Below are positions 5,669 through 46,788 of a DNA stretch of 64,000 nucleotides, one piece after another. The DNA comes from Cutibacterium granulosum (GTDB lineage: Bacteria; Actinomycetota; Actinomycetes; Propionibacteriales; Propionibacteriaceae), in the NCBI RefSeq assembly GCF_900186975.1, contig NZ_LT906441.1:1550001-1614000 (forward strand), in the 5' to 3' direction. How positions within the stretch are numbered: the first letter of the stretch is position 1; every line of letters begins with the position of its first letter. The notes below the pieces were generated by a model. The model was given only the letters and a program-made list of their open reading frames with translations. It ran no database searches and was not told where the DNA came from. A program made the position numbers and the translations under genes.

Positions 5669-8600
5669 ATGGACGCACAGGTCATGCGGATGGGGCTCGA
5701 CGTCGGTTCGACGACGATCAAGGCTGTGGTTTTCGACGGCGATCCGGGCGCGGACGCCCCGATCCTCTTCGAGGACTATCGCCGACATCGAGCTGACATC
5801 ACCGGTGCGCTTGCCAGCCTGCTCGCCGATGCCGCCGAGGCCCTGCCCGCACGCCGCGTCATCGCATCGGTGACGGGATCGGCCGGACTGGGCACTGCCG
5901 ATGCCCTAGGAATCCCGTTCATCCAGGAGGTCATGGCCGAGACCGCTGCGGTGCAGCACTGGAACCCCGATGCCGACGTCCTGCTGGAACTCGGTGGTGA
6001 GGACGCCAAGATCACCTACCTCAAACCGGTACCGGAACAGCGCATGAACGGCTCGTGCGCCGGCGGAACCGGTGCGTTCATCGACCAGATGGCCACCCTG
6101 CTGCACACCGACGCCCCAGGGCTCAACGAACTGGCGATGAACGCGTCGATGACGTACCCCATCGCCTCGCGATGTGGCGTGTTCGCCAAGTCGGACCTGC
6201 AACCGCTCATCAACGACGGTGCCCAGCACGAGGATCTTGCCGCCTCGGTCATGCAGGCGGTGGCCACCCAGTGCATCGCAGGTCTGGCCTGCGGCCGTCC
6301 GATCCGGGGACAGGTCGTCTTCCTCGGTGGCCCGCTGCACTTCATGCCGAGTCTGCGACATGCCTTCGCCACGATCCTCGACGGCAAGGTCGACGAGTTC
6401 GTCACCCCGGAGCGTGCCCAGCTCTACGTCGCCATGGGAGCGGCTCTCACCGCGCACGGCACCTCCATCGGGATAGACGAGCTGGCACGGGTCGCCCGAC
6501 ACAGCCGGGCCGCCACCGGCGTCAACCAGTCCATGCCCCCGCTCTTCCATGACGAGGAGGAACTGGCGTCCTTCCGCGCCCGACATGCTCGCGCAAAGTT
6601 GCCACGCATCCCCATCGGCCACGCCAAGGGAGAACTCTTCCTGGGGGTGGACGCCGGCTCGACGACGATCAAATCCGTCGTGCTGGACGACTCCCTCAAC
6701 ATCGTCGCGAGCTCCTACGCCTCCAACGAGGGCGATCCGGTCAATGCCGCGGTGCGGATCCTCGCCGACCTGTACGACGAACTGCCCACCGGGGCCGTCA
6801 TCGCTCGAACCTGCACCACCGGGTACGGGGAGGGACTCGTCAAGGCAGCCCTGGGCGCCGACGATGGTGAGGTCGAGACGATGGCCCACTACCGCGCTGC
6901 GGCCCACCTGTGCCCCGGGGTGACCTCGATCATCGACATCGGTGGTCAGGACATGAAATACCTGCGCGTCGTCGACGGGGTCATCGACTCCATCAGCGTC
7001 AACGAGGCCTGCTCATCGGGGTGTGGCTCCTTCCTGCAGACCTTTGCCGCCGGTATGGACACCGACATCCGCAGTTTCGCCGCGATGAGCCTGGACGCCG
7101 AGCACCCGGTCGATCTGGGCAGTCGCTGCACCGTGTTCATGAACTCCTCGGTCAAGCAGGCGCAGAAGGAGGGGGCCTCCCCCGCCGACATTGCCGCCGG
7201 ATTGAGCTACTCCGTGGTGCGCAATGCGCTGTACAAGGTCATCAAGCTCACCGATCCGGCCCAGCTCGGCGACAAGGTCGTCGTGCAGGGGGGCACCTTC
7301 CTCAACGACGCCGTGCTGCGTGCCTTCGAACTGCTCACCGGACGGGAGGTGGTTCGTCCCTCCGAGGCCGGTCTCATGGGTGCCTACGGAGCTGCCCTCA
7401 CGGCACGTGCCCGGTTCCACGCCGGGGAACCGGCCGGTGTGGGGTTGCGAGACCGTGGCGAGCTCGACGGTTTCGCCGTGGAGACCCACCGCGACGACTG
7501 CATGCTGTGCCAGAATCACTGCCAGCGCACCATCTCCACCTTCTCCGACGGTCGCGTCTTCGTGTCGGGGAACCGCTGCGAACGTGGCGCCCAGGTGGAC
7601 AATCGCAAACTCAAGCGAGCCCCCAAGTCGGAGCTGCCCAACCTCTTCGAGGCCAAGTACAAGCGGCTGTTCTCCTATCGCCGACTCACTGCCAAGAAGG
7701 CGTACCGTGGCGACATGGGCATCGCCCGTTCGCTCAACATGTACGAGAACTACCCGTTCTGGTTCACGGTGCTCTCCACGCTGGGCTATCGGGTGATGAT
7801 CTCGGGGCGGTCCAGCCATGAGATGTTCGACAAGGGCATGGAGTCGATCGCCTCGGAGAACATCTGCTACCCCGCCAAGCTCTCCAATGGCCACATCGAG
7901 GACCTCGTGCAACGCGGCGTCAAGCGGGTCTTCGACCCATGCATCCGCTTCGAGCGGGTCTCGGTGGAGCAGGCCGATGCGCATTTCAACTGCCCGGTGG
8001 TCGCCTCCTACCCCGAGGTCATCCGGGCCAATGTCGACTCCCTGCGTGAGCAAGGTGTCGAGCTCATCTCGCCGTTCCTGTCCCTGGCCAATGAGGACAA
8101 GCTCGCCGAGCGTCTCACCGAGATCTTCGCCTCCGACGGTGTCACCCTGGAGGAGGCCCGGCGCGCCGTTGCCGCTGGAACCGCCGAGGACGAGGCCTTC
8201 CACGCAGACATTCGACGGATGGGTGAGGAGGCGCTGGAGTACATGCGCGTCCACGACGTGCCCGGCGTCGTGCTGGCCGGACGCCCCTACCACGTCGATC
8301 CCGAGATCCATCACGGCATCCCCGAGATGGTCAACTCCTTGGGCATGGCGGTGCTCACCGAGGACTCGGTGGCCCATCTGGGAGCCGATCTGCTGGAACG
8401 TCCACTGCGGGTGCGTGACCAGTGGATGTTCCACTCCCGGCTCTACCAGGCGGCGGCATTCGTGCGCAGCCAGGGCAACCTGGAACTCGTCCAGCTCAAC
8501 TCGTTCGGTTGTGGGCTGGACGCCATCACCACCGATCAGGTACGGGAGATCCTCGCTGCCCGCGACCGCATCTACACGACGTTGAAGATCGACGAGGTCT

Positions 8601-12549: not shown

Positions 12550-13794
12550 ATGAGTCAAGATACAGGTCCGCAGTCCTTCGGCCGAGTCGACGATGACGGG
12601 ACCGTCTACGTCCGCACATCCTCTGGTGAGCGGTCCGTCGGACAGGTGCCGGATGCCAGCCCCTCCGAGGCGATGGAGTTCTTCGTCCGTCGGTTCACGT
12701 CGTTGCAGACGGAGGTCGAGTTGCTCGAGTCGCGGGTGTCCTCGGGTTCCGTGGCACCAGCCGAGGCGCAGCGCACGGCAGCACGGCTGTCGACGTCGAT
12801 CGAACAGGCCAATGCCGTCGGCGATCTGGAAGGTCTCAAGGCCAGGGTCGACGCTCTGGCTCCCACGATCGAGGCCAAGGCGGAGGTTCGCCGCGAGGAG
12901 CGCGCTGCCGCCCATGCCGAGACGAAGGCTGCCAAGGAGCGCATGGTTGCCCAGGCCGAGGAGATCCTTCACTCCAACGACTGGCGAGGCGGAGTGGGGC
13001 GGTTCCGCAAACTGCTCGAGGAGTGGAAGCAACTTCCGCGCATCGACCGCAAGACCGACGACGAGCTGTGGCACCGATTCTCCACGGCGCGTACCCAGTT
13101 CACCCGGCACCGCAAGGCGCACTTCGCCGAGCAGAACGCCGTGCGGGAACAGGCCCGCAGGATCAAGGAACAGATCATCGAGCGGTCTCGCCCGCTCGCC
13201 GACTCCACCGACTGGGGCACCACGTCTCGGGCCTTCCGTGACCTCATGAATGAGTGGAAGGCCGCTGGCCCGGCTCCGCGCGACGTCGACGAGAAGTTGT
13301 GGAAGGAGTTCCGCGGCATCCAGGACGTCTTCTTCGACGCGCGTGCCAAGGCCCAGTCCATCCAGGACGAGGAGTACCGCGGCAACCAGGAGGCCAAGGA
13401 GAAGTTGCTCGACGAGGCGGAGCAGAAGATCCTGCCGGTCAAGGACGTCGAGGCTGCCAAGGAGGCGCTGCGCGACTTCCTCACCACGTTCAACGAGATC
13501 GGCCGGGTGCCTCGCGACGCCATGCGCAGCATCGACGCTCGGGTCAAGGATCTGGAGGGCAAGGTCCACTCCGCCGAGCAGGCTGAGTGGAAACGCACCG
13601 ATCCCCAGGCCAGGGAGCGTGCCCAGGCCACCGTCGACATGCTCACTGCCCAGATCGACAAGCTCAAGACCGACGCTGCCAAGGCAGAGGCGGATGCCAG
13701 GACGGCTGCTGCCGCCAAGGCTCGCGAGTCCATCGCCACCTACGAGTCCTGGCTCGACCAGGCTCGCAAGGCTCTCAAGGACTTCACCTCCTGA
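12550..13794 (+). CDS. DUF349 domain-containing protein
   Basis: A 414-residue, highly charged, mostly helical protein with repeated DUF349 modules, each marked by a W-x-E/D-W pattern: HSNDWRGGVGRFRKLLEEWK, DSTDWGTTSRAFRDLMNEWK and a third more degenerate copy. Long coiled-coil stretches rich in Glu, Lys, Ala and Arg link them. Proteins of this type lie next to relA/hisS in many actinobacteria. Escherichia coli DUF349 proteins have been linked to RNA or ribosome-associated roles, but no function is established here. A hairpin terminator follows at 13831. Confidence 0.9.
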   Translation: MSQDTGPQSFGRVDDDGTVYVRTSSGERSVGQVPDASPSEAMEFFVRRFTSLQTEVELLESRVSSGSVAPAEAQRTAARLSTSIEQANAVGDLEGLKARVDALAPTIEAKAEVRREERAAAHAETKAAKERMVAQAEEILHSNDWRGGVGRFRKLLEEWKQLPRIDRKTDDELWHRFSTARTQFTRHRKAHFAEQNAVREQARRIKEQIIERSRPLADSTDWGTTSRAFRDLMNEWKAAGPAPRDVDEKLWKEFRGIQDVFFDARAKAQSIQDEEYRGNQEAKEKLLDEAEQKILPVKDVEAAKEALRDFLTTFNEIGRVPRDAMRSIDARVKDLEGKVHSAEQAEWKRTDPQARERAQATVDMLTAQIDKLKTDAAKAEADARTAAAAKARESIATYESWLDQARKALKDFTS

Positions 13795-13830
13795 GGTGCT
13801 GGCCCGGGGTGATGTCGTGACCGGGAGTCA

Positions 13831-13863
13831 ACGTGGGGCTGGGGGGATCTCCCGGCCCCACGT
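13831..13863. terminator. Strong hairpin after the DUF349 gene
   Basis: Nine-base perfect stem ACGTGGGGC (13831-13839) with GCCCCACGT (13855-13863), extended by an inner GGG/CCC pairing. It begins 37 bases after the DUF349 stop and lies between convergent genes, so it may serve relA too. No T tract. I see nothing else in 13864-14073. Confidence 0.7.
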
Positions 13864-14073
13864 GTTGCGTCGTGCCCGTCACGGTACGTGGTCGGCCCTG
13901 CCCGTGTTCCCTCGGGCCATGCTGCCGACGCCTGGATTCCCGGCGCACGGCTGCCCATCCGGTGCACCAGGTTCCGTTGGCGCCTCCCAGGTTCTGCTGC
14001 CCCGGCAGACTCCGTTCTATCCCCGCAGATCCCGTGAATTCGGCACCGCCACGGGCAACAGCTGACGGGGTGC

Positions 14074-16389
14074 TCAGGCCTTGACGCGATACACCTCGTA
14101 GACCCCGGAGATCCGTTTGATGGACTCGATGAGGTGGTGCAGATGAGTGGTGTCGGGTGAGACGAAGGTGAGACGCAGCTGGGCGATGTGATTCTTCGCG
14201 GCACTCATCTCCGCGGAGACCAGCGAGACGCCCTGCTCGGCGATGACCCTGCCGGTGTCACGCAGCAGCCCGGAACGATCCAGCCCCTCCACCTGGACGG
14301 TGACGAGGTATCCGTCGGCCTTGGCACCGGTCCACGACACCGGGATGATTCGCTCGGGGAACTTCAACAGGTGCTGGGCGTTGGAGCAGTCACGTCGATG
14401 GACCGACACCCCCTCGGAGCGTGTGACGAATCCCATGATCTCGTCACCGGGCATGGGGGTGCAGCACTTGGCCAGTTTGACGAGCATGTCCGGGTCGCCG
14501 TCGACGACGATGTCGCCGTTGCGCTGCCTGCTGGGCTTGGCGTCGGTGACAGGCAGATCCTCTCCGGCATCGGCGACCGTCTCCTCGGCCCCGCCCCCCA
14601 GGTCGATGAGTCGATCGACAACCGTCTGGGCACTGATGTTGTGCTCCCCCACGGCTGCGTAGAGGGCGTTGACGTCGCTCACGCGCAGTTCGTCGGCAAC
14701 GGCGGTGAGGTATTCCAGGGTGAGGACGCTCTGCAGGTAGTGGGCCTGGTGCTTGATCTGCTGGGCAATCGCATCGCGGCCTCGCTCGATGGACTCCTCC
14801 CGGCGTTCCTTGGTGAGGTACGACTTGATCTTGGACCGGGCCCGTCCAGAGGCGACGAACCCCAGCCAGTCGCGGCTCGGCCCGGCGTCGGGTGCGCTTG
14901 AGGTGAGGATCTCCAGCACGTCGCCATTGCTGAGTTCGGAGTCCAGTGGCACCAGGCGTCCGTTGACACGTGCCCCGATGCAGCGGTGGCCGATCTCGGT
15001 GTGCACCGCGTAGGCGAAGTCCACCGGTGTGGCACCCTGCGGCAGGGCCATGACGTCACCCTTGGGGGTGAAGACGTACACCTCGCGGGAGTTGATCTCG
15101 AAGCGCAGCGCGTCGAGGAACTCGTTGGGGTCATCCTCCTCGTGGGACCACTGATTGAGGTTGTGGACCCACGAGAGGTCCGAGCCGTCGGCCTGCACCT
15201 TCTTGCCGACCGCGTTGGGGTCCTCCTTGTACTTCCAGTGGGCGGCGACACCGTACTCGGCGCGACGGTGCATCTCGTGCGTGCGGATCTGGAACTCGAC
15301 GGGGTGGGCGCCCGGTCCCAGCACGGTCGTGTGCAAGGACTGGTACATGTTGTACTTCGGCATGGCGATGTAGTCCTTGAACCGGCCGGGAAGCGGGTTC
15401 CATCGCACGTGCATGACGCCCAAGGCAGCATAGCAGTCCCTGGGGGTGTCGACGAGGATGCGCAGACCGACGAGGTCGTAGATGTCGGAGAAGTCCCGGC
15501 CACGCACCACCATCTTCTGGTAGATCGAGTAGTAATGCTTCGGGCGCCCGTAGACCGTGGCCGTGATACCGGCCTCGGTGAGGTCGGCACGGACGATCTC
15601 GATGACCTCCTTGAGCTGTTTCTCACGCCCCGGCGCCCGTTCGGCGACGAGATGGACGATCTCGTCGTAGACCTTGGGCTGCATCGTGGCGAAGGCGAGG
15701 TCCTCCAGCTCCCACTTGATGGCATTCATACCAAGGCGGTGGGCCAGCGGGGCGAAGATCTCCAAGGTCTCCTTGGCGATGCGATTCTGCTTGTCCGGAC
15801 GCAGGTAACCCAGGGTCCGCATGTTGTGCAGCCGATCGGCAAGTTTGATGACGAGCACCCGGATGTCTCGGCTCATGGCGATGACCATCTTGCGGATCGT
15901 CTCGGCCTTGGCCGAGTCGCCGTACTGCACCTTGTCGAGCTTGGTGACGCCGTCGACCAGTTGGGCGATCTCCTCGCCGAAATCCGCGGTCAGCTGCTCC
16001 TTGGTGTAGGAGGTGTCCTCGACGGTGTCGTGCAACAGCCCGGCACACAGGGTCTGGTCGTCCATGCCGAGTTCGGCCAGGATCATGGTGACGGCCAGTG
16101 GATGTGTGATGTACGGGTCGCCGGAGATGCGTTTCTGGCCGCGATGGTAGTGATCGGCGGTGTCGAAGGCACGCTGTAGCAGGGCGACGTCGGCCTTGGG
16201 GTGCTGACTGAGCACGACAGCCAGCAGCGGGTCGAGCACGCCCTGACTCTGAGGTTTCGGGCTGCTCCACCGGATGAGACGCTCCCGCATCCCCATGCGG
16301 GGCTGTGGCGGCTTGTCCGGGGCCTTGCCGGGCACGCCCAGGGCGGACTTGCTGCCGTGGTACGGGCCATAGACGCTTTCGTCGGCCAT
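14074..16389 (-). CDS. relA: RelA/SpoT-type (p)ppGpp synthetase/hydrolase
   Basis: Long RelA/SpoT homologue of 771 residues controlling the stringent response. Order of domains: HD hydrolase (YITHPLAV, then GLLHDTVEDT, intact His-Asp), synthetase (YYSIYQKMVVRGRDFSDIYD, RFKDYIAMPKYNMYQSLHTT), TGS (VYVFTPKGDVMALPQGATPV), a Cys-containing zinc-finger/conserved-cysteine region (KCCTPMPGDEI) and a C-terminal ACT/RRM domain. The intact HD motif suggests a bifunctional enzyme. Start ATG 16389 is fixed by GGAGGT seven bases upstream; the frame continues to 16464 without another good site. Confidence 0.96.
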   Translation of the reverse strand: MADESVYGPYHGSKSALGVPGKAPDKPPQPRMGMRERLIRWSSPKPQSQGVLDPLLAVVLSQHPKADVALLQRAFDTADHYHRGQKRISGDPYITHPLAVTMILAELGMDDQTLCAGLLHDTVEDTSYTKEQLTADFGEEIAQLVDGVTKLDKVQYGDSAKAETIRKMVIAMSRDIRVLVIKLADRLHNMRTLGYLRPDKQNRIAKETLEIFAPLAHRLGMNAIKWELEDLAFATMQPKVYDEIVHLVAERAPGREKQLKEVIEIVRADLTEAGITATVYGRPKHYYSIYQKMVVRGRDFSDIYDLVGLRILVDTPRDCYAALGVMHVRWNPLPGRFKDYIAMPKYNMYQSLHTTVLGPGAHPVEFQIRTHEMHRRAEYGVAAHWKYKEDPNAVGKKVQADGSDLSWVHNLNQWSHEEDDPNEFLDALRFEINSREVYVFTPKGDVMALPQGATPVDFAYAVHTEIGHRCIGARVNGRLVPLDSELSNGDVLEILTSSAPDAGPSRDWLGFVASGRARSKIKSYLTKERREESIERGRDAIAQQIKHQAHYLQSVLTLEYLTAVADELRVSDVNALYAAVGEHNISAQTVVDRLIDLGGGAEETVADAGEDLPVTDAKPSRQRNGDIVVDGDPDMLVKLAKCCTPMPGDEIMGFVTRSEGVSVHRRDCSNAQHLLKFPERIIPVSWTGAKADGYLVTVQVEGLDRSGLLRDTGRVIAEQGVSLVSAEMSAAKNHIAQLRLTFVSPDTTHLHHLIESIKRISGVYEVYRVKA

Positions 16390-16820
16390 GGCGGCGACCT
16401 CCTTCACATCTATGGTTTTGGCCAGTTTAGTGCCTTGGCGTCTGGTACGTGGGCAGATGCCCACAGCGAACTGAGAACCGGAGTGTGTCGTGGCGCGTTC
16501 AACGCCCGCGACGTGCCCCAGGATGATCGTCTGCTTTCAAGGGTGCGCACGCCCGGGAAACGGTGTGCCCTCGGCCCCGGGCGTCCCGGACGCTCACGCA
16601 GGATGCAGCGACGTGAGTGCCACGATCTCGGTACCACGTGGGAGGGCCACCGGGGTGTTGCCGACGTGCCGGATCGCCCTGTGTTGAATCATCCAGGGCC
16701 GAATCACTTTGTGCCGGATCTCCCTGTGCTGAATCGTCCTGGATCGAACCGCTCGGTGTCGAGTCGTTCCGTACCAAATTGTCCTGGGATCCCGCGTCTC
16801 GGGGACGGCCGTGGTAGGGC
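16390..16820. other. relA-apt spacer without a convincing gene
   Basis: 431 bases with no convincing gene. The left part carries the relA ribosome-binding site and presumably its promoter. The right part is an array of 15-bp tandem units (listed separately). Open frames cross it on both strands, but their residue pattern is the repeat itself and they lack start signals. Confidence 0.6.
16666..16800. repeat. Degenerate tandem repeat, 15-bp unit, higher-order 45-bp period
   Basis: Nine consecutive 15-base blocks, of which eight fit a consensus close to GTGCCGAATCGTCCT. They also group as three 45-base copies (16666-16710, 16711-16755, 16756-16800). The first two 45-mers are clearly alike over their first 32 bases; the third is more decayed. 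The unit is a multiple of three and stays open in more than one frame, reading as a five-residue repeat. It lies between the stop of apt and the start region of relA. Confidence 0.8.
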
Positions 16821-41226: not shown

Positions 41227-41871
41227 ATGTCTCTGGCACAGAGTGAACGAGCCGGGCTGGCGGGGGATCTGGATCGTCTGGGCCCCGATGCCCCGACCCT
41301 CGACAAGGGGTGGACGACCAACGACCTACTCACCCACATGCTGCTGCGTGAGAATGATCCACTGGCCATTCCAGGTATGGCGGTCGACCTGCTGGACGAG
41401 ACGACAGCTGCGCGAGCACGTCGCCTGGAAGCGTCAACGACTTTCGATGAACGGGTGGCACAGTTCCGACGCGGCCCCAAACCGTGGAGTGCGTTTCGTA
41501 TCCCGCTTCTCGACCGGGTCGCCAACGGGGCGGAGTTCTTCGTGCACCATGAGGACGTGTTGCGGGCTGAGGAAGGGTGGTCACCCCGAGAGCTGGGGCA
41601 CCAGACCCAGACCCACCTGGCAAGGATCGTCAAGCAACATGCCCGCCTGCTCCTGCGCCGCAGCCCGGTGGGTGTGCGGGTGGAGATGACTGGGCAGAGC
41701 GGTGACCTGCACACACTCATGGTGCGTCCGGGATCCCGTATCGTCACCGTGGTCGGAGAACCTGCCGAGGTGCTGCTGCACTGCTATGGACGAAAGAGCG
41801 TCGCCCAGGTCACCGTGCTTGGGGAACGCGAGAGCGTCGAGGCATTCCTCCAGACGGAGTGCTCTGTCTGA
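41227..41871 (+). CDS. TIGR03085-family (mycothiol-dependent maleylpyruvate isomerase-like) protein
   Basis: 214 residues in the DinB/maleylpyruvate-isomerase N-terminal superfamily. [17 protein letters not shown] carries the first metal His, and [12 protein letters not shown] the later ones, the layout of actinobacterial TIGR03085 proteins. Function is not known; a thiol-transfer role is only inferred from the family. Start ATG 41227, with AAAGGA seven bases upstream. Divergent from hisI with about 75 bases between. Confidence 0.75.
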
Positions 41872-41986
41872 CTGCTGGAGCTGTCGGTGAACCCTGCACG
41901 GACGACGAGGGCAGGATGACACATCAGCCGTGGTCATCGCCGTAAATCCAGCTTGGGTTGCATGTGGTGCCGTGCCGGGATGGTGC

Positions 41987-42205
41987 TTACGGGACCTTGA
42001 CTCCTTCGAGCTGGTCGCAGGTGGAGACCAGGGTGTCGGGCATGGTCTCGGTGGGCAGGGAGAGGATGAAGTCGTCAATGGCGTATCCATCGCCCTTCTC
42101 GACGATCTCCACGGCAGAGATGTCCGCGTCGACCGTCCCCATCGTCGTGGCCACCTTGCCGAGGGCGCCGGGGACGTCAGGGACCTGGATACGAAGAATG
42201 AGCAC
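41987..42205 (-). CDS. ACT-domain-only protein, truncated duplicate of the gene at 46171
   Basis: 72 codons, GTG start, beginning LILRIQVPDVPGALGKVATT. Over 71 residues it is identical to the N-terminal ACT domain of the 205-residue protein at 46171. It then ends with Pro and a TAA where the long copy continues. The DNA identity spans 41992-42216 against 46160-46384 in inverted orientation. The four differences inside the coding part are all silent, so it may still be expressed. It could equally be a very recent partial copy. Confidence 0.6.
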   Translation of the reverse strand: MLILRIQVPDVPGALGKVATTMGTVDADISAVEIVEKGDGYAIDDFILSLPTETMPDTLVSTCDQLEGVKVP

Positions 42206-42216
42206 GACCCCATTGT
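41992..42216 (-). repeat. Left arm of 225-bp inverted duplication
   Basis: Matches 46160-46384 in opposite orientation with about six mismatches by hand count. The 5' ends of both ACT copies point inward, so the arms frame the gatCAB operon. Confidence 0.9.
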
Positions 42217-42677
42217 TCGCTGGTTCGTCATCAGTGAACCAGGGTGCGGCGACAGAACCGTGACCACGGGACCTGGGAACACGCGGGTCCGTCCAGGTTC
42301 AATGACGTACCTGATCAGGTCGGATGGGGGTCTGTTCGGAACGTGCACACATTCAGCGGCCACCGGACTGTGCTTGACACGGTCGTGGTACTGCCAGGTG
42401 AGTGCCTGAAAGCTGAGAGGAAACAACCTGCCCTGCGTGTGAACGTCGCCTTCTCAACGAGTTGAAGATGTCGGGATGGGCCTTCTGCCTGCCCCTGCGT
42501 GTGAACGTTGCCTTTCTGTGAACGCCGTCTCCCATGAAAAGTTGACGGTGGGTGATTTCGGTCGCTGCTCGTGCATTGAGTGGGGAATACCCCCACCCCA
42601 TCGCATTCACACATGAACGCCACGTGTTGGGGCCGGTGCGGACCCACCCGTCACCGGCCCCAGCAGGGTGCTCGGTC
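42206..42677. other. Spacer between the ACT fragment and gatB, with direct repeats
   Basis: 472 bases. A 22-bp direct repeat (CCCTGCGTGTGAACGTCGCC at 42431 and a one-mismatch copy at 42493) has a third partial copy near 42515. The rest holds the gatB terminator; no gene is seen. Confidence 0.5.
42628..42662 (-). terminator. Terminator hairpin after gatB
   Basis: Perfect 11-base stem TGGGGCCGGTG (42628-42638) with CACCGGCCCCA (42652-42662), starting 16 bases after the gatB stop on the minus strand. No T tract. Confidence 0.75.
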
Positions 42678-44183
42678 TCAGGAGAGTTTCTCCAGGATGA
42701 GCTCGCGCACCCGCTTGGCATCGGCCTGACCCTTCATGGCCTTCATCACCTGGCCGATGAGAGCCCCGGCGGCCTGCACCTTGCCGCCGCGGATACGCTC
42801 TGCGACGTCCGGATTGGCGGCGATGGCGTCATCGACGGCAGCTCCCAGGGCGGCATCGTCCGAGACGACGGCAAGGCCGCGGGCGTCCACGACCTGCTCT
42901 GGATCGCCCTCCCCCGCTGTGACGCCGTCAATGACCTGACGGGCCAGCTTGTCGGTGAGGGTCCCGTCGTCGACGAGGTTCTGCAGCTGAGCGACCTGGG
43001 CCGGGCTCATGCCCACCTCGGGCAGCTCCACACCGGCCTCGTTGGCCCGGCGGGACAGCTCGGTGAGCCACCACTTGCGGGCCGGGGCCGGTGCACAGCC
43101 TGCCTCGGTCGTCTGCTCGATGAGGTCTAGGGCGCCGGCGTTGACGATGGCCGACATCTCCACCTCGTCGAATCCCCACAGCTCCTTGAGTCGGGCTCGT
43201 TTGACGGCAGGCAGCTCGGGCAGGGTGGCACGCAGCTCCTCCACCCACTCCCGACTCGGTGCCACCGGCACCAGATCGGGTTCGGGGAAGTAACGGTAGT
43301 CCTCGGCATCGGACTTGTCGCGACCGGCGATGGTATACTCACCACTCTCCTGCCACATGCGGGTCTGCTGACGTACGCTTCCTCCGGAAGCCAGTACGGC
43401 GGCCTGACGGCAGATCTCGTAACGCAACGCACCTTCAACCGAACGCAGTGAGTTGACGTTCTTGGTCTCGGTTCGCGTCCCCAGGACATCAGAGCCCTTG
43501 GGCATGAGTGAGACGTTGGCGTCACAGCGCAGATTGCCTCGCTCCATACGTGCCTCGGAGACTCCCAGGGCAAGCATGACGTCGCGCAGATGGGCCATGT
43601 AGGCACGAGCCACTTCCGGCGCCTTGGCCCCCAGGCCACGTACCGGTTTGGTGACGATCTCGATGAGTGGGACACCGGCTCGGTTGTAGTCCAACAGCGA
43701 GTACTGAGCACCCTGGATGCGCCCGTCCGAGCCGCCGACGTGCAGCGACTTGCCGGCATCCTCCTCCATGTGAGCCCGTTCGACCTCGACGTGATAGGTC
43801 TGCCCGTCCACCTCGAGGTCGACGTAGCCGTCGTGACAGATCGGCTCGTCGTACTGCGAGATCTGGTAGTCCTTGGTCATGTCGGGGTAGAAGTAGTTCT
43901 TGCGCGACATGCGACTCCACTCGGCGATCTCACAGTTGAGTGCGAGGCCGATGCGGATGGCCGACTCCACGGCCTTGCCGTTGATTGCCGGCAGCGAACC
44001 GGGAAGTCCCAGACACACCGGGCAGACGTTCGTGTTCGGCTCGGCGTCGGAGTTCGTCGAGCAGCTGCAGAACATCTTGCTGGCCGTTGACAACTCGACG
44101 TGCACCTCCAGCCCCAGGACTGGGTCGAAACGCTCCATCGCCTCGTCGTAGTCGAGCAGATCATCGGTGGCATAGGCCGTCAT
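42678..44183 (-). CDS. gatB: Aspartyl/glutamyl-tRNA(Asn/Gln) amidotransferase subunit B
   Basis: 501 residues. GatB binds mischarged tRNA and activates its amino acid. The zinc site is visible as [12 protein letters not shown] plus CPVCLGLPG, and the kinase-like core as [19 protein letters not shown]. The C-terminal YqeY-like domain ends with [20 protein letters not shown]. Start ATG 44183 overlaps the gatA stop (ATGA), with AAGGAGG seven bases upstream. Confidence 0.97.
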
Positions 44184-45685
44184 CGTGCGTCCTCCTTGGC
44201 CGGGTCGGGAACTTCGGAGAGCAGGGAATGACCCCACGACTCCTCCAGGGCGTGTTCGACAGCCGCACCCACTCGGTAGACGCGGTCATCGGCCATGACC
44301 GGTGCCATGACCTGCAGACCCACCGGCAACCCATCGGCCAGACCGCACGGGAACGATCCGGCCGCGACACCGGCCATGTTCGCAGGGATGGTGCACAGAT
44401 CTGCACGGTACATCGCCATCGGGTCATCGGTGCGCTCCCCCAGTGTGAAGGCGACAGTGGGGGTCGTCGGGGCCACGAGGGCGTCACAACTGCGCCACGC
44501 CTGCGCGAAGTCACGCTGGATGAGGGTACGGATCTTCTGCGCCGAACCGTAGTAGGCGTCGAAATACCCGGCGGACAGGGCGTAGGTGCCCAGAATGATG
44601 CGCCGCTTGGCCTCTTCCCCGAAGCCGGCACCGCGGGTGGCACGCATCACCTGCTCGGCGCTGTGGTCACCATCGTCGTCCAGACGCAGTCCGTAGCGCA
44701 TGGCGTCGTAACGGGCCAGATTGCTCGACACCTCAGCAGGCTGGATGAGGTAGTAGGCCGACAGGGCGTACTCGAAGTTCGGGCAGGAGACCTCGACGAC
44801 CTCGGCGCCCAGACGGGTGAGCAGCTCGACGGTCTCGGTGAACCGTGCCTCGACACCGGGCTGGTACCCCTCACCGGAGAGCTCCTTGACGACGCCGATT
44901 CTCATGCCACGGACCTCGCCGATGCGAGCCGCCTCGGTGGTTGCGGGGACTGGTTGGTCGATGGAGGTCTGGTCCATCGGGTCGTGGCCGCCGATGACCT
45001 CGTGCAGCAGAGCGGTGTCCAGGACGGTGCGGGCACACGGGCCGGGCTGATCCAGGGAACTCGCCATGGCGATGACGCCGTGGCGCGAGGTGCCACCGTA
45101 GGTGGGTTTCACGCCGACGGTGCCGGTCACGGCAGCGGGCTGACGGATCGAGCCTCCGGTGTCGGTGCCCAGGGCCAGGGGTGCCTCGTGGGCCGCCAGG
45201 GCTGCCGCCGAACCACCACCGGAGCCGCCGGGTACCCGGTCCAGGTCCCACGGGTTGTGGGTGGGGCCGAATGCCGAGGTCTCCGTCGAGGATCCCATGG
45301 CGAACTCATCGAGGTTCGTCTTGCCGAGGACGACCAGGCCGGCGTCCAGGCAGCGCTGTACGACGGTGGAGTTGTACGGGGGCACCCACTTCTCCAGCAT
45401 CCGTGACGCAGCGGTGGTCGGCATCCCCCGGTAGCAGAAGAGATCCTTGACGGCGATGGGCACCCCAGCCAAGGGGCCAAGCTTCTCACCTGCGGCGATG
45501 CGCTCGTCAACCCTGCGAGCCGACTCGATCGCACGTTCCCCGTCGACGGCGAGGAATGCATGGACCGGACCGTCCACCTGCTCGATGCGGTCCAGGTGGG
45601 CACGAGTCACCTCTTCGGACGACACCTCGCGGCGGGCGATGCGCGTGCCGAGTTCGGCAGCCGTGCTGTGAATGAGATCGCTCAC
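44180..45685 (-). CDS. gatA: Aspartyl/glutamyl-tRNA(Asn/Gln) amidotransferase subunit A
   Basis: 501-residue amidase-signature glutaminase. The catalytic Lys lies in [10 protein letters not shown], and the cis-Ser and nucleophile Ser in [14 protein letters not shown] and [11 protein letters not shown]. It supplies ammonia to GatB. Start ATG 45685 overlaps the gatC stop by four bases. Confidence 0.97.
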
Positions 45686-45978
45686 TGCTCCTCCTGCAGA
45701 ATCCTGGGGACACGGAACCTGTTGTCCTCGACCTTGGGCGCCATGGCCAGGGCATCGTCGACTGGCATGGACGGGGCCACGACGTCCTCACGGAACACGT
45801 TGGACAGTGGCAGGGCGTGCGAGCTGGGTGGGACGTCGGCCGAGGCGACCTGGGAGACGACGGCCACCGAGTCAAGGATGAGTCCCAGCTGCGGGGCCAG
45901 GTTCTCCTTCTCCTCCTCGGTCAGGTCGATACGTGCCAGGCCAGCCAGACGGGCGACGTCATCAGGCGTCAGGGCCAC
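45682..45978 (-). CDS. gatC: Aspartyl/glutamyl-tRNA(Asn/Gln) amidotransferase subunit C
   Basis: 98-residue structural subunit starting [23 protein letters not shown] 45978 has GGAG seven bases upstream and gives the family length; the frame extends upstream to 46020 with non-homologous residues. Order gatC-gatA-gatB with ATGA overlaps indicates one coupled operon. The divergent 192-base spacer to the ACT gene holds the promoters. Confidence 0.95.
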
Positions 45979-46159
45979 GATGATTCTCCTGGAGGTGGAC
46001 TGATGGAAGGTGTCCGGCATGTGCCGTACAGCACGAGTCTAGTGGTTGACGTCCTGCCGATGTCTCGGCACTGCCGATCACGGTCGATGGAACAGGTGCT
46101 CCTGCACACCGCGTGTCTCACATGCGGGCGCGTATTTGGGTGAGATCTCCCGACGTAGG

Positions 46160-46384
46160 ACAATGGAGACGTGCTCATTCTTCGTATCCAGGTCCCTGAC
46201 GTCCCCGGCGCCCTCGGCAAGGTGGCCACGACGATGGGGACCGTCGACGCGGACATCTCTGCCGTGGAGATCGTCGAGAAGGGCGATGGATACGCCATTG
46301 ACGACTTCATCCTCTCCCTGCCCACCGAGACCATGCCCGACACCTTGGTCTCCACCTGTGACCAGCTCGAGGGAGTCAAGGTCC
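46160..46384 (+). repeat. Right arm of 225-bp inverted duplication
   Basis: Covers the 5' end of the full-length ACT gene, including 11 bases of upstream sequence. See the left arm at 41992-42216. Confidence 0.9.
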
Positions 46385-46788
46385 TGTGGCTGTCGCGCCA
46401 CCTCGAGGACTGGGGCCTGGAGTCCGACATCGCGACCCTCAACCGCATGGCCGAGGACCAGCAGCATGCTGCCGAACTGCTCACCGAGGCGGCACCCACC
46501 GTGTTTCACTGCCAGTGGGCCACTCTCTTCGGACCTGGTCATGAGGTGCTGACGTCGACTGCGCTCTCCCCGGAGTTCACCAGTGAGGCGATTGCTGCGC
46601 TCGGTGCGATGGATGAGCCGCGTCGCGTCGAACTCGATGAGACCTGGATGCCTGGATGGGGCGCCACCGTGGTGGCCCTTGCCCCGCTGTCCGGTGGACG
46701 CTGCCTGGTGCTGGGGCGCCGTGGTGGCCCGGTGTTCCTGGCATCGGAGGTCAACCGTCTGCGTCACATGGCGGCTCTGGCGAACTGA
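46171..46788 (+). CDS. ACT-domain protein next to gatCAB
   Basis: 205 residues: N-terminal ACT domain (VLILRIQVPDVPGALGKVAT, residues 1-71) and a C-terminal part of about 130 residues with an HFH-like HCQWATLFG and ELDETWMPGWGATVVALAPL. Its position beside gatC corresponds to Rv3013 in Mycobacterium tuberculosis. ACT domains usually sense amino acids; no ligand is known. GTG 46171 lies close behind TAGGACAAT, suggesting a leaderless message. Confidence 0.85.
   Translation: MLILRIQVPDVPGALGKVATTMGTVDADISAVEIVEKGDGYAIDDFILSLPTETMPDTLVSTCDQLEGVKVLWLSRHLEDWGLESDIATLNRMAEDQQHAAELLTEAAPTVFHCQWATLFGPGHEVLTSTALSPEFTSEAIAALGAMDEPRRVELDETWMPGWGATVVALAPLSGGRCLVLGRRGGPVFLASEVNRLRHMAALAN

Follow-up and report, generated by a model that had tools for sequence, protein, structure and literature searches.

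In the 64,000-nucleotide window analysed here (positions 1,550,001 to 1,614,000 of contig NZ_LT906441.1, assembly GCF_900186975.1, Cutibacterium granulosum), the gatCAB operon is bracketed by two inverted copies of the start of one gene, which encodes an ACT-domain protein. How did this arrangement arise, and could it turn the operon around? The right arm of the pair belongs to the full ACT gene and the left arm forms a truncated copy, ACT', on the far side of the operon (Table 1; all positions are those of the window unless stated otherwise). The reading that we favour, and consider probable, is a recent inverted partial duplication that came with a composite insertion and is present only in this genome among those searched.

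We aligned the two arms position by position in opposite orientation and found 6 mismatches in 225 bp (97.3% identity). The first-pass annotation of this DNA had claimed a 225-bp inverted match with about six mismatches and had set 90% identity as its threshold; its coordinates are right, and the identity lies above that value. A repeat finder extended the arms slightly, to 41989-42216 and 46160-46387 (228 bp each, with 3943 bp between them), and listed no other inverted pair of at least 40 bp in the 64-kb window. When the left arm was used as query against the whole genome (2,175,244 bases in one contig), the right arm was returned with an E value of 3.5e-106, which excludes chance; the next-best match after it spans 39 bp at 82% identity (E 7e-4). 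No second inverted pair of at least 100 bp and at least 85% identity was found in 23 distinct 20-kb stretches of the genome (460 kb; 3 from the window and 20 others), where the remaining inverted match is one 56-bp palindrome. The locus is thus an inverted partial gene duplication, in which a gene fragment is repeated in opposite orientation far above chance. The gatCAB operon, whose product makes glutaminyl-tRNA in many bacteria, lies wholly between the arms. Both arms use GTG as start codon, 11 bases in from the arm start, their 5' ends point inward, and the longest mismatch-free run between them is 102 bp.

Which arm is the original? Of the 130 other family genomes with a match, we compared the gene order in the 29 that match best. 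In 27 of these, ACT and gatCAB diverge, with gatC or gatA upstream on the other strand (in three of the 27, L020, L025 and L026, about 0.9-1.1 kb from ACT); in the other two, neither gatC nor gatA lies within the short stretch compared. A wider neighbourhood, inspected at 17 loci, showed the divergent order in 14/14 stretches of a first set, all of which belong to the 29. L034 and L035 are further records of two of these genomes, and L036, a metagenome bin, breaks the rule: its gatB stands on the same strand at a distance of 6.4 kb, and gatA and gatC were not found there. By this comparison, the right arm belongs to the ancestral gene and the ACT-gatCAB order in this genome is the ancestral order. 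The full ACT protein scores 23.7 bits against the Pfam ACT family, under the cut-off of 27, and its sequence matches solved structures weakly (E 0.039). Its predicted structure has a mean predicted local distance difference test (pLDDT) value of 91 and an N-terminal beta-alpha-beta-beta-alpha-beta arrangement, and fold matches of the model include ACT domains, such as 6lxg (template modelling score 0.80 by target length). A VTT-like gene stands behind the full ACT gene.

The duplicated piece is the first third of the ACT gene, placed backwards on the far side of gatCAB. The arm ends one base past codon 71. In the predicted ACT fold, this point falls within strand beta-4, which spans residues 70-76; the block 71-80 has a pLDDT of 78. 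Because the cut falls within beta-4 and is followed by one residue and a stop, ACT' is not a whole ACT domain; it scores 26.8 bits against Pfam ACT, just short of the cut-off. A family search of 197 genomes, 131 of them with a match at E 1e-4, found a truncated second copy beside the gene only in this genome (G000). Other second matches were distant and full-length (G018, G098, G143 and G155) or consisted of two part matches on two contigs (G140), and in a few family genomes the single match is only partial. A 30-base word of the arm had no match in one scan of viral contigs, and a scan of genome contigs returned 3 loci, none from this species.

We then considered where the arms begin. In the full gene and in 13/13 relatives (8 of the genus and 5 of a sister genus), a TTTGG box stands at -34 to -37 and an A[CG]AAT box at -10 to -12 from the start codon; as judged by eye, most of the more distant genomes do not share the pair. 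The two boxes before the GTG (46135-46173) are probably a promoter with a leaderless message, a putative assignment; a scan of 41800-46300 for the sigma-70 consensus gave no site. ACT' carries ACAAT at -11, and TTTGG is absent. The 11 bases of upstream DNA that had been claimed for both arms are indeed there, with the 5' ends facing inward. Their description has to be amended in one detail: they hold the conserved -10-like box and are therefore probably part of the gene's own promoter. Since the arms start at this box and exclude TTTGG, an inversion would swap the -35 side of both genes. The putative promoter, recognised by its conservation, would be split, with TTTGG inside the segment that would invert and the -10-like box in the arm. 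This bears out the geometry proposed earlier, in which recombination within the arms would invert 3.9 kb with gatCAB and exchange the DNA upstream of both ACT starts. Just upstream of the -10-like box of ACT' we also noticed by eye a perfect 7-bp inverted repeat, CTGGTTC-N9-GAACCAG (42220-42242), which may be due to chance.

What kind of DNA surrounds the left arm? The gap between gatB and the convergent TIGR03085 gene measures 806 bp here versus 27-103 bp in 8/8 genus relatives, both stop codons included; on these lengths, the left arm sits in DNA absent from the genus relatives. This stop-to-stop comparison covered the genus; in several of the five sister-genus stretches seen, the gap exceeds 1 kb. 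The 806 bp also contain a scrap of 28 bp, encoding KAHPDIFNS, whose source match is at genome positions 234752-234779. We call the gene at that site clpC-like, since its product is a Clp-type AAA+ ATPase that carries a UVR motif. The scrap has a second, weaker match to a clpB-like gene, and the clpC-like genes of two other genomes (G013 and G035) match it at 94% over 32 bases; it likely derives from the genome's own clpC-like gene, as the exact match suggests. With ACT' and the clpC scrap in one stretch, the 806 bp look like a composite insertion. An insertion sequence or other mobile element gained no support as an identity for the 806 bp, which gave no match to a transposase or known mobile element in the following searches. 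No phage match was found in them, and the plasmid collection gave one match, of 32 bp, which is the clpC word. The 110- and 122-residue frames of the stretch have no Pfam match, and the 122-residue frame matches only itself in the genome. A 22-nt direct repeat flanks the scrap; across nine genus genomes, this one included, its 16-nt core has no perfect match besides these two sites, and with up to 2 mismatches it matches in 8 of the nine, mostly by chance, since the reversed control matches as well. A clustered regularly interspaced short palindromic repeat (CRISPR) array was rejected as an identity for the 22-nt repeats; the repeat of the genome's own array, which holds GGCTCACCCCCGCGTAGGCGGG, differs by eye.

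Taken together, these results suggest how the recent inverted duplication may have formed. A composite insertion of 0.8 kb would have entered between gatB and the TIGR03085 gene, carrying an inverted copy of the initial 225 bp of the ACT gene (-10-like box to codon 71) together with the scrap of the clpC-like gene; template switching or ectopic copying during replication repair would be the likeliest origin. The copy lacks the -35 box, most of the last ACT strand and the C-terminal part, and would probably be a non-functional fragment. The arms could exchange sequence through RecA, mostly by gene conversion and rarely by inversion; after an inversion, gatCAB and the DNA upstream of it would still be intact, but TTTGG would have moved from the full gene to ACT'. 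Partial direct duplications elsewhere in the genome, for example the one in stretch L087 described below, count in favour of this reading. The event is most likely ordinary in kind for the most part, with one interesting coincidence, a breakpoint at the -10-like box.

The differences between the arms do not all sit easily with this account. Two of the mismatches are noncoding, at -4 and -2. The coding differences between ACT' and the full gene number four, at codons 24, 59, 63 and 67, and all are synonymous. Codons 24, 59 and 63 could be polarised against the 13 relatives, whereas -4, -2 and codon 67 could not. At codon 63 the base of ACT' is ancestral (C in 13/13 relatives), as it is at codon 59 (C in 11/13); at codon 24, ACT' shares G with the nearest relative and with 4/5 of the sister genus; of the seven remaining genus members, six carry T and one carries C. 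The polarised changes therefore fell in the full gene in 3/3 cases, and ACT' keeps the ancestral base. By tests of constraint and position that were chosen after the data were seen, the probability of 4/4 synonymous changes without constraint is 0.4%, that of 3/3 changes in the full gene if ACT' is unconstrained is about 0.008 (0.028 for at least 3 of 4), and that of 5/6 mismatches lying within 40 bp of an arm end by chance, as they do, is 0.024. The synonymous changes and their polarity weigh against the favoured reading, and a freely decaying fragment fits the substitution pattern poorly; the pattern would fit an ACT' that is simply young, is under selection, was imported as an older allele or underwent gene conversion in mid-arm. 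It also counts against this reading that searches of the own genome and of phage and plasmid sequences found no source for most of the 806 bp, and that Ku was found in 0/9 genus genomes (control 1/14, Bacillus subtilis), which leaves a Ku route to templated insertions unsupported.

The retained ancestral bases bring up other explanations. If the insertion had come by recombination with another strain or relative, ACT' would be the older allele of that lineage; the ancestral state at 3/3 polarisable sites and the lack of another match in the genome for most of the 806 bp agree with such an import. We nevertheless consider it unlikely: ACT' is 97% identical to the full gene of its own genome and 82% to that of the nearest relative searched, the clpC scrap matches the own gene in 28/28 positions (though G013 and G035 are nearly as good), and phage sequences gave no match and the plasmid collection only the clpC word. 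Selection on ACT' could instead mean that it is expressed as a short protein that pairs or interferes with the full ACT protein. Its open 72-codon frame, the 4/4 synonymous differences and the ancestral bases would suit this idea, yet most of the predicted beta-4 is missing, the TTTGG box is absent and gatB is 472 bp away with a possible terminator stem between, so that we regard such a protein as very unlikely; the Pfam score of ACT', just under the cut-off and above that of the full protein, was not counted against it. Highly improbable, in our view, is a role at the RNA level, in which read-through from the TIGR03085 gene would make a plus-strand RNA in antisense to the clpC-like message and to the beginning of that of ACT. 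The predicted complementarity lies on one strand and is nearly perfect over 225 nt and perfect over 28 nt, and a terminator scan of 41800-46300 returned none; against it, the two stretches folded showed no unusual fold (z -1.32 and -0.14), and a search of Rfam with 41500-46400 gave three matches, all far under the gathering score, and no known RNA family.

Can the segment flip? We searched for a dedicated recombinase. The tyrosine recombinase family (Phage_integrase) has three matches in the genome, all of them outside the window (1550001-1614000), the nearest about 149 kb past its end, and the serine recombinase family (Resolvase) has no match in the genome (control 10/14). With no recombinase in the window, a flip would rest on RecA. 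According to the available part of PMC10790761, recombination at the pneumococcal SpnIII locus between inverted repeats of 85 and 333 bp needs no recombinase of the locus, which makes spontaneous inversion plausible here; the 102-bp perfect run and the total of 225 bp fall within the size range of recombining repeats. Inversion between the arms mediated by RecA would thus be feasible. In Salmonella, the available part of PMC8262849 gives inversion in 5/59 repaired clones and, for earlier work on tuf, in up to a quarter of events; inversion being the minority there, gene conversion would be the commoner outcome. The flipped order was not found in the own genome, the one of its species in the comparison, or in the 27/29 family genomes, all divergent, and these relatives have no second arm and are hence uninformative on inversion. 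A slow switch, by which RecA would flip gatCAB and so supply the full ACT gene, and with it the VTT-like gene, with the -35 box or deprive them of it, is favoured by the position of the arms, whose start at the -10-like box keeps the -35-like box within the stretch that would flip, by the perfect run, by the intact operon between the arms and by the SpnIII precedent. We hold it to be unlikely, as the present order is the ancestral one, the pair is known from one genome only and both family searches found no dedicated invertase nearby. Quite unlikely is the fuller form of this idea, with gatCAB as the body of the slow RecA-driven switch and the -35 box moving between the full ACT gene (with the VTT-like gene) and ACT'.

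Phase-variable hsdS loci have a full gene beside partial inverted copies, as does the locus described here. The streptococcal ones (SpnIII and SsuCC20p; available part of PMC10790761) also resemble it in having inverted repeats of comparable length that recombine without a recombinase of the locus. They differ in that coding parts are shuffled there, whereas in the present locus the two copies encode the same protein sequence over the shared part and a flip would exchange upstream DNA only, with no recombinase in the window. Invertible promoters (invertons) are alike in that inversion would change the promoter before a gene. In these, a short segment with a promoter is flanked by short repeats at which a site-specific invertase cuts, whereas the spacer here is a whole housekeeping operon. 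The Salmonella tufA/tufB pair, as presented in the available part of PMC8262849, likewise places two near-identical stretches in opposite orientation on one chromosome, where conversion and inversion are possible; at the present locus, one member is a fragment of 225 bp, 3.9 kb separate the two and the pair is known from sequence alone. If inversion happens, gatCAB would ride as cargo in a switch by which a conserved ACT neighbour is turned up or down without a dedicated recombinase. If it does not, the locus would show how pieces of two genes, one of them distant, come to be copied into the gap between convergent genes.

Table 1. Features of the locus, with positions in the window.
Feature	Position	Strand	Remarks
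ACT' reading frame	41987..42205	-	72 residues; residues 1-71 identical to the full protein, then one new residue and stop
Left arm	41992..42216	-	inverted copy, 6 mismatches in 225 bp
ACAAT box of ACT'	42212..42216	-	first bases of the left arm
Right arm	46160..46384	+	runs from the -10-like box through the GTG start to codon 71 of the full ACT gene
-10-like ACAAT of the full ACT gene	46160..46164	+	opens the arm; start codon follows after 6 bases
-35-like TTTGG of the full ACT gene	46135..46139	+	outside the arm, inside the would-be flipping segment; conserved in 13/13 relatives
Full ACT-domain gene	46171..46788	+	205 residues; ancestral locus
Stretch between the convergent TIGR03085 gene and gatB	41872..42677		806 bp, longer than in relatives
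clpC scrap	42459..42486	-	identical over 28 bp to part of the own clpC-like gene (E 4.7e-7); reads in sense on this strand
22-nt direct repeat, copy 1	42431..42452	+	flanks the clpC scrap
22-nt direct repeat, copy 2	42493..42514	+	flanks the clpC scrap
G+C-rich inverted repeat	42625..42665	-	just past gatB; possible terminator; similar stem after gatB in L044, by eye
gatB	42678..44237	-	longest frame; start may be internal
gatA	44180..45685	-	
gatC	45682..46020	-	longest frame

The genome has a size of 2.175 Mb and a guanine plus cytosine (G+C) content of 64.5% (400-kb sample); for Cutibacterium granulosum, the available part of PMC10832045 gives 2.153 Mb and 64.1% G+C, and type I-E CRISPR in 19/30 genomes. 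The own CRISPR array of this genome, in L103 from position 7148, has a 22-nt repeat core with 31 exact copies in 20 kb, mostly 61 bp apart, and lies near a casE match. Direct duplications were seen in the same 20-kb stretches. In L087, a recent-looking one of 339 bp (14463-14800 and 16054-16392, 98.8% identity) lies at the end of a Schlafen AlbA_2 gene. Further ones are of 79 bp at 86% in L080, of 531 bp at 85.5% in L078 and, in three cases, of 52-55 bp. L080 also holds a 573-bp direct duplication (12826-14633, 96% identity), at and after the end of a gene with RHS repeats that encodes 1878 residues; it probably represents repeated small downstream genes.

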